Source: Cytophagales bacterium (GTDB lineage: Bacteria; Bacteroidota; Bacteroidia; Cytophagales; Bernardetiaceae). Taken from it: a DNA stretch of 64,000 nt. The stretch covers positions 1-64,000 of the forward strand of contig JAAFJX010000003.1 in the NCBI GenBank assembly GCA_013299045.1, read 5' to 3'. This document shows positions 5,467-64,000 of the stretch, piece by piece; positions within the stretch are counted from its first letter, which is position 1, and every line of letters begins with the position of its first letter. A program made the position numbers and the translations under genes. The notes beneath the pieces are model-generated. The model saw only the letters and a list, made by a program, of their open reading frames with translations, was not told the DNA's origin and ran no database searches.

Positions 5467-5969
5467 ACAAGCTCTTAATTAACCTCTCTGAGAGATGTCC
5501 GTTTTTAGGAAGCGAATAATTGTACTTTTCCAAGATAGGGGCTTTACTTTTAAAGTATGGCCAACTACGGCTATGATACGGCTATCATACGGCTATGATA
5601 CGGCTATGCTAGGGCTAAGGCAAAATATGACAAAAGCAATTTTTAGGCATCAAGCGGGTTTGCGGCTTTATCTTTTTTTTTGTTATTGAGTAGGTCTGCT
5701 GGCCTGTATTGGCGTTAGAGAGGCGGCGGGTTTAGTGCGTAGCACCGAAGCGAAGCGAAGCCCAAAGACGAACGACCGCGAAGCGGGAACGCCCAAGAAA
5801 TTGTAAAAAAACAATCGTGCGTCTTGACAACTCAAGAGAGCTTAATTTCGTTCACCCCCCGCAACTCTGCGGAAAGGACGGTTTTAATAAACGACTAGTA
5901 GATTTTAAAGATGAAATGCTTGTTTAATTTACTGACAATAAATACTTTAGCTTTATTTCAAGAGAAGAC
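5467..5969 (+). repeat. Dispersed modular repeat, locus 1 (modules B-C-D-E-G)
   Basis: This non-coding block is shared with 54762-55578 (inverted) and 62247-63245. Module B (about 5467-5690) ends in four 11-base tandem units CGGCTATGATA at 5568-5611. Module C (5709-5796) is GC-rich with nested hairpins. A short module D remnant ends near 5848. Module E (5855-5895) contains CCGCAACTCTGCGG. Module G (about 5905-5969) ends in AAGAGAAGAC. Modules A and F are absent. It fills the gap between the sigma gene and the DoxX-like gene. The small open frame at 5495-5689 is not conserved in the other copies (ATG is followed by TAA at 62.4 kb), so I treat the block as non-coding. Confidence 0.85.
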
Positions 5970-54761: not shown

Positions 54762-55578
54762 GTCGTCGCTTAAAATACATCTAAGCTGTTTGTTATCAGT
54801 AAATTAAATAAGCGTTTTATCTTCAAAATATCTTAGTTGTTTATTAAAACCGTGCTTTCCGCAGAGTTGCGGAGGTTTTTAGACGAAAGCAGCCTCTTAA
54901 ATTAACCTCTCTTGAGTCGTCAAAAAGCCCTTTTTGAGTTTTTTAAGTTCTAATTGCCCTCTTTTCACTTTTGTAGAGGCCATCTTCTCGCGTTTTCAAA
55001 TAACTTTTTGCCAAATGCCTTATATCTAATTTTTTGACTAATGATTGTTTTTCTACAATTTATTGGGCGTTCCCGCTTCGCGGTCGTTCGTCTTTGGGCT
55101 TCGCTTCGCTTCGGTGCTACGCACTAAACCCGCCGCCTCTCTAACGCAAATACAGGCCAATAGACATACTCAATAACAAAAAAAGGATAAAGTCGCAAAC
55201 CCGCTTGATGCCTAAAAATTACTTTTGTCCTATTTTGCCTCAGCCATAGGATAGCCGTATCATAGCCGTATCATAGCCGTATGATAGCCGTAGTTGGCCA
55301 TACTTTAAAAGTAAAGCCTCTATCTTAGAAAAGTACAATTATTCGCTTCCTAAAACTCACATCTCTCAGAGAGGTTAATTAAGAGCTTGTTTTGTAAGAG
55401 ATTGAATCAGAGAAAAAGCCATTCGCTGGTTTAGATGAAAAAAGGTTCTTTTTTCATCTAAATTGGCCTTTTGCGAGGCTTGATTTTTTTGCTATGCCCT
55501 ATGGTCGGAACTTTCAGCTCGCGCTTCGGTTCTGCATCAAGGCAAAAAGTAGAGAAGAGAAGTCTATCAAAGGCCGTC
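54762..55578 (-). repeat. Dispersed modular repeat, locus 4 (A-B-C-D-E-G, inverted)
   Basis: An inverted copy in which modules read from high to low coordinates: A (about 55578-55395, hairpin arms 55430-55443 and 55449-55462), B (about 55390-55160, tandem 11-base units around 55249-55291), C (about 55150-55062, GC-rich), D (about 55060-54890), E (54872-54841, CCGCAACTCTGCGG core) and G (about 54838-54762). Module F is missing. The order equals that of the plus-strand copies. It fills the gap between the Wza-like gene and the propeller-like gene. Confidence 0.85.
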
Positions 55579-60314: not shown

Positions 60315-61649
<1,335 letters not shown>

Positions 61650-61759
61650 TTATAAATGAAACAAGGGAGAAAGATTGTTAAAAGCAATATAAAGCAGCCC
61701 CAAAAGCTAAAAGAGCTCGTCAGGACGCAAAGCATCGTGGTCTTAAAGACCAAGTGCAG

Positions 61760-61823
61760 AGCAACTAAGAATTGAGAGAGGAGAATAAATTGCTAACAAC
61801 AACAACAACAAGGAGTTGCTAGC
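61760..61823 (-). promoter_or_regulatory. Mutually exclusive hairpins, candidate attenuator of metY
   Basis: On the minus strand GCTAGCAAC (61823-61815) can pair over nine bases (one G-U) with GTTGTTAGC (61800-61792), which covers the last Cys codons and stop of the leader ORF. The same 5' arm can instead pair with AGTTGCT (61766-61760) using AGCAACT (61820-61814). A ribosome waiting at the Cys codons would block the first stem and free the arm for the second. No obvious intrinsic terminator follows, so the way the choice affects expression is open. Confidence 0.55.
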
Positions 61824-61894
61824 CCAAAGAGCCATAAGCTCAAAAAAGGATTGGTAGAGCGAATAGAAAAGGGAGCTTGTGCAGAGTTTTGCAT
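61793..61894 (-). CDS. Leader peptide ending in five cysteines
   Basis: A 33-codon frame starting at ATG (61894) ends with LWLFGLATPCCCCC and TAG (61793-61795); the Cys codons are five consecutive TGT at 61796-61810. It lies upstream of metY in the transcript predicted from the promoter at 62078-62110. A run of codons for the end-product amino acid just before the stop, inside a stem-loop, is the hallmark of transcription or translation attenuation leaders. Cysteine is the logical signal for a sulfur assimilation gene. No Shine-Dalgarno-like sequence is seen, as is usual in Bacteroidota. Too short for standard gene callers. Confidence 0.7.
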   Translation of the reverse strand: MQNSAQAPFSIRSTNPFLSLWLFGLATPCCCCC

Positions 61895-62077
61895 GACTTT
61901 TTTTAAGTTTATAGTTCCTAAATCAGTTAGGCAGGAATTAACACCTTTCGCGGCCAGTATTTATTGCGTAGGTTGTTAGTCGTTCTTTGAGCCTGTTCTC
62001 TCCCGACTTCTTTATAAGCCAAAAAACTCTGAATAAGTGCTACAAAAAGCAACACGGTCAATACAGATTTTGACGGC

Positions 62078-62246: not shown

Positions 62247-63245
62247 TCTCTCTACTTTTGCCTTGATGCAGAACTGAAGCGCGAGCTGAAAGTTCCGACC
62301 GTAGGGCATAGCAAAAAAATCAAGCCTCGCAAAAGGCCAATTTAGATGAAAAAAAACTTTTTCATCTAAACCAGCGAATGGCTTTTTCTTGGATTCACTC
62401 TCTCACAAAACAAGCTCTTAATTAACCTCTCTGAGAGATGTAAGTTTTGGAAAGCGAATAATTGTATTTTTCTAAGATAGAGGCTTTACTTTTAAAGTAC
62501 GGCCAACTACGGCTATCATACGGCTATGATACGGCTATGATACGGCTATCCTATGGCTGAGGCAAAATAGGACAAAAGCAATTTTTAGGCATCAAGCGGG
62601 TTTGCGACTTTATTCTTTTTTTTGTTATTGAGTACGTCTATTGGCCTGTATTTGCGTTAGAGAGGCGGCGGGTTTAGTGCGTAGCACCGAAGCGAAGCGC
62701 AGCCCAAAGACGAACGACCGCGAAGCGGGAACGCCCAATAAATTGTAGAAAAACAATCATTAGTCAAAAAGTTAGATATAAGGCATTTGGCAAAAAGTTA
62801 TTTGAAAACGCGAGAAAATGGCCTCTACAAGGGACAAAAGAGGGCAATTAGAACTTAAAAAACTCAAAAAGGGCTTTTTGACGACTCAAGAGAGGTTAAT
62901 TTAAGAGCTTGCTTTCGTTCAAAAACCTCCGCAACTCTGCGGAAAGGACGATTTTAATAAACGACAGAGTTGCACAGAAAATCTCACTCTCTGACCTTTG
63001 AGCCATTCGCTTTTGTCTGATGCGAGGCATGGCAGGCCGTAAGAAGCTCTTGAGGTTTTACCAGTTTTTGACAAAATAGGCTAAAATCTAAGATGTTTTA
63101 AAGATGAAATTCTTGTTTAATTTACTGACAATAAATACCTTAGATGTTTTTAAGGGAAGACTATCTACAAGGTGCAAAAGAGAGCAATTAGACCTCACAA
63201 AACTCAAAAAGGGCTTTTCGACGACTCAAGAGAGATTAATTTAGC
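62247..63245 (+). repeat. Dispersed modular repeat, locus 5 (all modules A-G)
   Basis: The fullest copy: A (62247-62400, hairpin arms 62341-62353 and 62358-62370), B (about 62404-62640, tandem 11-base units 62510-62557), C (about 62650-62750), D (about 62755-62905), E (62925-62963), F (62964-63090), G (about 63092-63162). A second copy of the last part of D follows at 63164-63243, so D flanks E-F-G as a direct repeat of about 80 bases. It fills the gap between the metY leader and the cryptochrome gene, whose stop codon is about 15 bases away. Confidence 0.88.
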
Positions 63246-63257
63246 GGCTATTTATGG

Positions 63258-64000
63258 CTAATCCAGCCAGTGTTGGACGTAAAGCCCATCGGGGTCATAC
63301 AAAGCAGCTTGGCGTGGAATATTAAAGTAGCGGTCTTCGCGTGGGTCTTTGCCTACACCCGCTACATACTGCCAGTTGCACCAGTTGCTGGTGGTGTCAT
63401 AGTCGAGGAGCATCGTCTCAAAAAATTCAGCTCCCCAGCGCCAATCAACTTTTAAGTCCTTAACCAAGTAGCTTGCTACATTCTGCCTTCCTCGGTTAGA
63501 CATGAAGCCCGTTTCGGCAAGTTCACGCATATTGGCATTGATAAAAGGCTGCTGGCATTGTCCTTGGCACCAATCGCGGAAGTCTTTTAGACTATTTTTG
63601 TATGTCTTGGGGTTTTTGTGGGCCATCAAACCATTTTTATAGAAAATTCTTTGCTCATACTTCATGCCCACAAATTTGAAATAATCGCGCCAGAGTAGTT
63701 CAAAAAATAACCAGTAGGTAGAATCATTTTTAAGAATTTGCTTTTCAAAGCGCTGTATCTCCTCATATACGTAAACAGGCGAGAGCGCACCAAGCGCTAG
63801 ATAAGGCGAAAACTTTGAGGAATAGGCTTCGCCTAAAAGGCCATTGCGCGTTTCTTTATAACAGCTAAGGTGTTGGGTGTCCCAAAAATAATGTTTAAGA
63901 CGCAAAAGTGCGTGGGTTTCGCCGCCCACGAAAGGCAGAACTGCTTTAGGACTGTGGGGTAGGCTTTCTTGAGGACAATACTGGTGTTTGCTCAAAAAAT
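63258..64000 (-). CDS. DASH-type cryptochrome/photolyase, C-terminal part
   Basis: The frame is open to the window edge; about 247 residues of an expected 430-480 are visible, so the N-terminal half lies outside. Family features are GGETHALLRLKHYFWD, LLGEAYSSKFSPYLALGALSPVYVYEEI, WLFFELLWRDYFKFVGMKY, and FINANMRELAETGFMSNRGRQNVASYLVKDLKVDWRWGAEFFE with DYDTTSNWCNWQYVAGVGKDPREDRYFN, the FAD-binding domain of Cry-DASH proteins. These repair UV lesions in single-stranded DNA or act as light sensors. The last codons approach repeat locus 5. Confidence 0.93.
   Translation of the reverse strand, partial: FLSKHQYCPQESLPHSPKAVLPFVGGETHALLRLKHYFWDTQHLSCYKETRNGLLGEAYSSKFSPYLALGALSPVYVYEEIQRFEKQILKNDSTYWLFFELLWRDYFKFVGMKYEQRIFYKNGLMAHKNPKTYKNSLKDFRDWCQGQCQQPFINANMRELAETGFMSNRGRQNVASYLVKDLKVDWRWGAEFFETMLLDYDTTSNWCNWQYVAGVGKDPREDRYFNIPRQAALYDPDGLYVQHWLD

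Follow-up and report, generated by a model that had tools for sequence, protein, structure and literature searches.

A SAM-I riboswitch and a cysteine-rich leader ORF in series before metY of Bacteroidota, a candidate two-input sulfur gauge

The window, a stretch of 64,000 nucleotides from a Cytophagales bacterium of the family Bernardetiaceae, carries the gene metY on its minus strand, preceded by a leader ORF that ends in five cysteine codons and, further upstream, by an aptamer that scores as a SAM-I riboswitch (Table 1). The last base of the aptamer lies 11 nt upstream of the ATG of the leader ORF, metY follows 271 nt downstream of the aptamer on the same strand, and 158 nt separate the stop codon of the ORF from the ATG of metY. 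An earlier note on this DNA had described a 33-codon ORF with five TGT codons before TAG, had named the downstream gene metY and had read the whole as a candidate cysteine attenuator with alternative hairpins. The ORF is confirmed, as is the gene by a TIGR01326 match over the cut-off, and the Cys-run leader peptide does belong to metY, being kept in relatives. The alternative hairpins and a classical attenuator with an intrinsic terminator were not borne out, and the riboswitch and an enrichment in methionine had been missed.

Table 1. Features of the metY locus in the window, and the second SAM aptamer of the same genome
Feature	Position	Strand	Remarks
Candidate -7 promoter element TTACTTTG	62086-62079	minus	One mismatch to TAHHTTTG; starts 66 nt before the aptamer
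SAM-I riboswitch aptamer (Rfam RF00162)	62020-61906	minus	62.3 bits (gathering cut-off 44.4); model 1-108 of 108
Aptamer helix P1, 3' strand, TATAAACT	61906-61913	minus	Pairs with 62013-62020 (GGCTTATA), one C-A mismatch
Leader ORF (uORF)	61894-61793	minus	ATG start, 33 codons, MQNSAQAPFSIRSTNPFLSLWLFGLATPCCCCC*; counterpart in 90 of 103 metY leaders
5' arm of the stem of the earlier note, GCTAGCAAC	61823-61815	minus	Pairs with GTTGTTAGC (61800-61792)
Five TGT (Cys) codons	61810-61796	minus	Directly 5' of TAG (61795-61793); run conserved
Small hairpin TGGTCTTTAAGACCA	61738-61752	minus	Downstream of the ORF; may correspond to the post-ORF hairpin of relatives
metY, O-acetylhomoserine aminocarboxypropyltransferase / O-acetylhomoserine sulfhydrylase	60315-61634	minus	TIGR01326, 659.2 bits (cut-off 495.1)
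Second SAM aptamer of the genome	C28:34355-34458 (L001:1501-1604)		72 bits; upstream of cysH and cysD (both over cut-off)

By its score and by the methionine gene that it precedes, the aptamer is a member of the SAM-I (S-box) riboswitch class. Two features distinguish it from the usual riboswitch of this class: no ordinary intrinsic-terminator platform was found behind the aptamer here, and helix P1 borders directly on the start of a conserved leader ORF rather than on that of the gene. A loose-threshold Rfam search returned, beyond SAM, only chance-level matches, with two snoRNA matches and one plastid match below their cut-offs. The cysteine run of the window is also a perfect 3-base repeat, a 17-nt AAC microsatellite at 61795-61811, so that taken alone it could be due to chance; judged by comparison with relatives, it is more than chance. 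As a SAM-I riboswitch stands ahead of the Cys ORF, the arrangement would constitute a two-input device.

Relatives were drawn from two sources, namely 80 named metY loci, which are the best 80 of at least 555 relatives confirmed by scan, and the aptamers of related genomes, of which 72 of 99 (summed) were read, the two of the own genome included. Rfam found a SAM aptamer in 73 of the best 80 named loci (17, 20, 20 and 16 per 20) and none in L082, L085, L086, L142, L146, L151 and L158; the upstream sequence amounts to merely 67, 397 and 131 nt in L085, L142 and L146, respectively. Protein motifs identify metY in 31 of the 72 genome loci. Once one exact duplicate (L008 = L160) was dropped, 103 metY leaders with an aptamer remained (73 + 30). 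These were judged by the first ATG after the aptamer, with the frame not chosen, and by the presence of at least three cysteines in the last ten codons. Such an ORF is present in 90 of the 103 leaders, while dinucleotide-shuffled leaders (first 220 nt, 200 sets) yielded on average 0.81 and never more than 4 per set. Of the 86 clusters of similar leaders, 74 consist only of leaders that pass, which argues that the conservation is not due to relatedness. The earlier note had itself made its reading depend on conservation of the cysteine run, and the run is conserved; in the same-genus locus L033, for example, the peptide ends in CCCCC directly before the stop.

The 90 ORFs measure 27-59 codons (median 40), with a cysteine run that varies in length from 1 to 9 and a final cysteine that is the last codon in 60 of them. 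Cysteine makes up 48.4% of the last ten residues against 2.8% of the rest, and methionine 10.5% against 1.7%. The runs comprise 315 TGT and 161 TGC codons, and since both are used in 80 of 90 ORFs, the runs are not one inherited microsatellite. In the last eight codons of 22 pairs of relatives, 60, 54 and 76 changes fall at codon positions 1, 2 and 3, with 25 synonymous and 74 other codon changes; third positions change only slightly more often, and the count thus agrees only weakly with the codon usage. The 13 leaders that lack three cysteines by the first-ATG rule are a mixed group: in L114 and L150 a Cys ORF is present from another ATG, L024, L104, L119 and L154 have two cysteines each, the Cys run of L071 lies in a frame that lacks an ATG, and L011, L031, L032, L047, L060 and L066 have no Cys run at all. 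Judging from these last six, the peptide is absent behind a minority of metY aptamers.

The leader ORF is tied to the gene that follows. In 140 aptamers from related genomes within the order and class (72 + 30 + 38), with genes sorted by protein motifs, an ORF starting within 15 nt of the aptamer and holding at least two cysteines in its last ten codons stands before 30 of 38 metY genes, none of 52 metH genes and 6 of 50 other genes. Aptamer and Cys ORF are also found outside the own order, before metY in L198, L205, L208 and L219 and in L202 before a gene that is metX by nearest family, below cut-off; the ORF of L226 ends Met-rich with two cysteines, and that of L189 has two. Other neighbours of Cys ORFs are an O-succinylhomoserine sulfhydrylase in L053 (by nearest family, just below cut-off), a cysteine desulfurase in L064 (by nearest family, below cut-off) and, in L058 and L061, an ATP-grasp protein followed by an SfnG-like monooxygenase (below the SfnG cut-off). 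In the own genome, the second SAM aptamer is followed after 9 nt by a 35-codon ORF that ends in HCCRY, so that by its sequence the sulfate-assimilation operon cysH-cysD is under the same kind of leader. As part of the two-input reading, the pair of aptamer and leader thus appears to recur before cysH-cysD, metX, a sulfhydrylase, a cysteine desulfurase and an SfnG-like monooxygenase. L039 (G007) has a SAM aptamer and an ORF ending in VMCWCCCC without an adjoining sulfur gene; its next long gene, 465 nt away, encodes an 851-residue fibronectin/PA14 protein. When the own genome was scanned for four Cys codons plus a stop, nine matches were obtained, five of them copies of one repeat. Apart from the window locus, none of the nine resembles the leader of a sulfur gene, the remaining matches lying inside open frames of other genes or without a sulfur gene. 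The sequence TGCTGCTGCTGTTAG occurs five times on C11, C52 and C66 of this genome, apparently as one repeated segment.

Bacteroidota ribosomes do not use Shine-Dalgarno sites. In Flavobacterium johnsoniae, as far as the consulted part of the report goes, initiation is favoured by A at -3, -6, -12 and -13 and disfavoured by structure between -20 and +20 (PMC6847099). The leader ORFs have A at -3 in 66%, at -6 in 74%, at -12 in 70%, at -13 in 61% and at -14 in 73% of cases, and AAA as the second codon in 58 of 90; by sequence, the leader ORF has a Bacteroidota-type start that matches these positive determinants. The spacing to the aptamer is tight, the distance from the aptamer end to the ATG being 1-14 nt in 97 of 103 leaders. 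Five of the six outliers (L034, L036, L038, L040 and L041) have a TATAAA-type P1 end just 5' of the ATG, and in these the aptamer end seems to have been placed too early. In 88 of the 97 leaders, positions -12 and -13 lie inside the last 8 nt of the aptamer, that is, in the 3' strand of P1; in the window, this strand doubles as the upstream half of the start region of the leader ORF. Across the leaders, the predicted mean unpaired probability of positions -14 to -11 is 0.12 with P1 forced and 0.76 without the P1 5' strand. The window copy, whose P1 has a C-A mismatch and whose ATG offset is 11, shows the opposite trend (0.50 with P1, 0.28 without), so that no closing by P1 is predicted for it. 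Four loci of one genus (g15; L025, L027, L057 and L061) carry a different SAM aptamer end, TATAAAAA, followed directly by the shared letters CAAGTTGCCGTGG. In one Sphingobacteriaceae genome, the metY SAM aptamer has a cobalamin riboswitch (L132:730-928, minus strand, 110 bits) as its back-to-back neighbour.

A transcript that starts downstream of 61793 had been named as an observation that would speak against a leader, and an upstream start is likely. An exact match to TAHHTTTG, described as the Bacteroidota -7 promoter element in the consulted part of PMC6847099, is present in 47 of 103 loci in the 80 nt that precede the aptamer, while only 1 of 103 has it between the ORF stop and metY. Of 61 occurrences within 200 nt upstream of the aptamer, 41 sit 50-69 nt before it, and the one-mismatch element of the window has the same spacing as the exact matches in relatives. 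Aptamer, leader ORF and metY are thus likely, by these motifs, to share one transcript that starts upstream of the aptamer.

The metabolism encoded in the own genome, which is 99.8% complete, gives the two inputs a possible meaning. Cystathionine beta-synthase (519.7, cut-off 510.25) and an enzyme of the cystathionine gamma-synthase/lyase family (529.9, cut-off 513) are present, while in this genome no CysK-family match exceeds its cut-off (the best, 316.6 of 344.15, being the same beta-synthase gene) and neither does any CysE match (35.9 of 210.65). By this gene content, cysteine would be made from the homocysteine of MetY, which probably feeds both methionine/SAM and, by reverse transsulfuration, cysteine. 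Two gauges on metY would be explained by this double use of homocysteine.

Taken together, the arrangement that we favour is a SAM-I riboswitch joined in series with a leader peptide for sulfur amino acids, both in front of metY, and we consider it reasonably probable that the two work as follows. Transcription would start about 50 nt upstream of the aptamer. With SAM bound, P1 would be closed and the A-rich half of the start region hidden; since the P1 3' strand is the upstream half of that region, ribosomes could not start on the leader ORF. When SAM is low, P1 would open and the ORF of 27-59 codons would be translated up to the Cys (or Cys and Met) codons before the stop, at which the ribosome would stall if charged tRNA-Cys is scarce. 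Translation of the ORF, and above all a ribosome halted at its end, would let transcription run on into metY; without translation, the leader transcript would be cut short, most likely by Rho. That the whole is a two-input sulfur gauge, in which the SAM riboswitch targets the start codon of the leader and the peptide counts charged tRNA for cysteine (mainly) and methionine, we regard as having slightly better than an even chance. If so, metY would be fully on solely when SAM and cysteine are both short.

A classical attenuator along the lines of the earlier note, in which alternative hairpins and an intrinsic terminator are switched by stalling at Cys codons without SAM, is very unlikely. The pairings of the note do exist in the letters of the window, where the inner part of GCTAGCAAC can alternatively pair with AGTTGCT (61766-61760), but they are not conserved in relatives. 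Over the 135 nt from 61760 to 61894, the predicted fold is somewhat more stable than in shuffled sequence (z -2.27), a level reached by 6 of 200 shuffles. Pairing of the Cys run with downstream sequence did not hold up as the switch (longest helix 6.79 versus 6.44 in shuffles; 7 of 90 at p of 0.07 or less) and was rejected as a common mechanism, with a mean duplex z of -0.58 and 10 of 90 below -2; it is striking in single families (L103, L113, L118) but not general. Terminator-like sites after the ORF stop number 6 in 90 leaders against 3.6 in shuffles. A strict scan of whole leaders, which counts for an attenuator, gave 5 of 90 against 1.7, and so does a hairpin followed by a T-rich stretch before the ORF stop, present by a lax rule in 24 of 90 leaders against 5.5 in shuffles. 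This excess persists when the run is kept and the body alone shuffled (24 versus 8.0, maximum 12, 30 sets). Of these hairpins, seen for example in L010, L038, L040 and L041, 18 end within 40 nt of the stop, mostly just 5' of the T-rich Cys run, but TTTT follows in only 4 of the 24. The possibility that the excess reflects the aptamer's own hairpin was ruled out, no stem beginning in the aptamer; the hairpin ahead of the Cys run may represent a second RNA signal, one that overlaps the Met/Cys codons. As the tests for a terminator and for Cys-run pairing gave these results, and with a SAM aptamer present, the leader was not filed as a classical attenuator. It is extremely improbable that the SAM riboswitch alone matters and that the Cys ORF arose by chance from a TGT/AAC microsatellite. 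The perfect 3-base repeat of the window would suit such an origin, but 90 of 103 leaders against 0.81 in shuffles, the mixed TGT and TGC codons in 80 of 90 runs and the 0 of 52 before metH argue strongly against it.

A reading of opposite sign, in which translation of the ORF to its stop represses metY by breaking or making a downstream fold and the two inputs are not simply additive, is unlikely, although it has structure on its side. The 80 nt after the ORF stop are on average more structured than shuffles (mean z -1.55, with values below -2 in 26 of 90); the ORF body (z 0.03) and the metY start region (+0.49) are not. In the window copy, the corresponding stretch, 61700-61796, does not exceed chance (z -0.84), which speaks against the favoured reading for this copy. 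Folding of 18 of the 20 Pedobacter-group leaders (L107 and L124 were left out as divergent) showed one invariant hairpin after the stop and a next hairpin with compensating changes, which fill 23 cells versus 9.7 in shuffles (0 of 500) with a score of 0.258 versus 0.125 (0 of 500); the number of pairs with a compensating change, 5 versus 3.9, is ordinary (120 of 500). By eye, and uncounted, a hairpin with a pyrimidine-rich loop recurs after the stop of Mucilaginibacter leaders. A precedent exists in Mycobacterium tuberculosis, where, according to the consulted part of the report, the metE uORF suppresses its gene and ppe2, by contrast, depends on its uORF (PMC11260477). If SAM closes the start of the ORF, repression by ORF translation would switch metY on at plentiful SAM, the reverse of the SAM-I norm. 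At SAM-I riboswitches before methionine genes, plentiful SAM does not turn the gene on. Finally, the Cys/Met end could act as an arrest peptide or small effector that binds a metal, sulfide or a thiol-reactive signal in or outside the ribosome and does not gauge tRNA-Cys. Cysteine and methionine are metal ligands, and patterns such as CICMCCCC recur in Mucilaginibacter, but the peptide body differs even between close relatives (L002, L033), the run length varies from 1 to 9, the peptide has no Pfam match and the genes nearby are sulfur genes; we consider this quite improbable.

For the riboswitch and leader peptide in series, the step that would stop the transcript was narrowed by elimination. 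Hiding of the metY start site is disfavoured because the start region is not structured, and stop-start coupling or a reinitiating uORF because the stop lies at least 87 nt from the metY ATG, the distance over the 90 loci being 87-695 nt with a median of 132.5. The lack of a common intrinsic terminator, the open metY start and the distant stop leave Rho-type premature termination as what would be the best remaining candidate, with Rho present in the own genome. The signs from composition are mixed: the ORF body is rich in C and poor in G (25.2% versus 13.1%), the density of YC after the stop equals that of shuffles (0.137 versus 0.140), and metY itself has more C than G in 83 of 90.

Both halves of the arrangement are known separately, and their fusion in series was not found described. 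In the open-licence literature, no description of a SAM riboswitch with a Cys leader peptide in Bacteroidota was found, one elsewhere being possible; for a SAM riboswitch with Bacteroidetes metY, only other riboswitch work turned up there, and for S-box attenuation none. The Cys ORFs of Canestrari 2020 are, by the title, said to be leaderless, unlike the leader ORF here. According to the consulted part of Seliverstov 2005 (PMC1262725), cysteine leader peptides of Actinobacteria are short ORFs with a Cys run near the stop, upstream of sulfur genes, and those of Mycobacterium have no conserved terminator hairpin. The leader here is alike in the Cys run, the sulfur gene downstream and the lack of a conserved terminator hairpin, and differs from what that part of the source describes in phylum and gene, in its place behind a SAM riboswitch and in its enrichment in Met codons. 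Tandem Cys codons are shared with the uORFC-8-2 motif before cysS of Rhodobacterales, which has two Cys codons at about 14-15 and a terminator stem and for which, unlike for the metY leader, the consulted part of the source mentions no riboswitch (PMC8632094). The ppe2 B12 riboswitch of M. tuberculosis resembles the proposed arrangement in that a riboswitch controls a leader ORF needed for the gene; in the part of the report consulted, its uORF overlaps the gene start (stop-start) and no amino-acid run is reported, unlike the stop at least 87 nt from the gene and the Cys run here (PMC11260477). The metA SAM-II riboswitch of Sinorhizobium meliloti acts on translation and has a further element downstream, both of which are proposed or found here too, but it is of another aptamer class, and the consulted part of the source does not mention a Cys run for metA (PMC9373788).

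The fusion of riboswitch and leader is conserved in at least two orders of Bacteroidota. If the proposed mechanism is true, it would show how a riboswitch can act in a phylum without Shine-Dalgarno sites, by hiding the A-rich start region, it would extend amino-acid leader peptides to Bacteroidota, and it would provide a natural logic gate that reads the end product and an intermediate of a pathway. It further predicts that short ORFs, unannotated to date, are translated behind metY-type SAM aptamers in the group, for example in Pedobacter and Mucilaginibacter.

Two minor observations concern the surroundings of the locus. An 11-base tandem repeat, TACGGCTATGA and its complement, forms three arrays in the window (5566-5617, 55251-55292 and 62508-62558), one of which lies about 490 nt upstream of the aptamer. 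Beyond it, positions 63258-63998 hold a partial gene for a DASH-family cryptochrome, cut by the end of the window.
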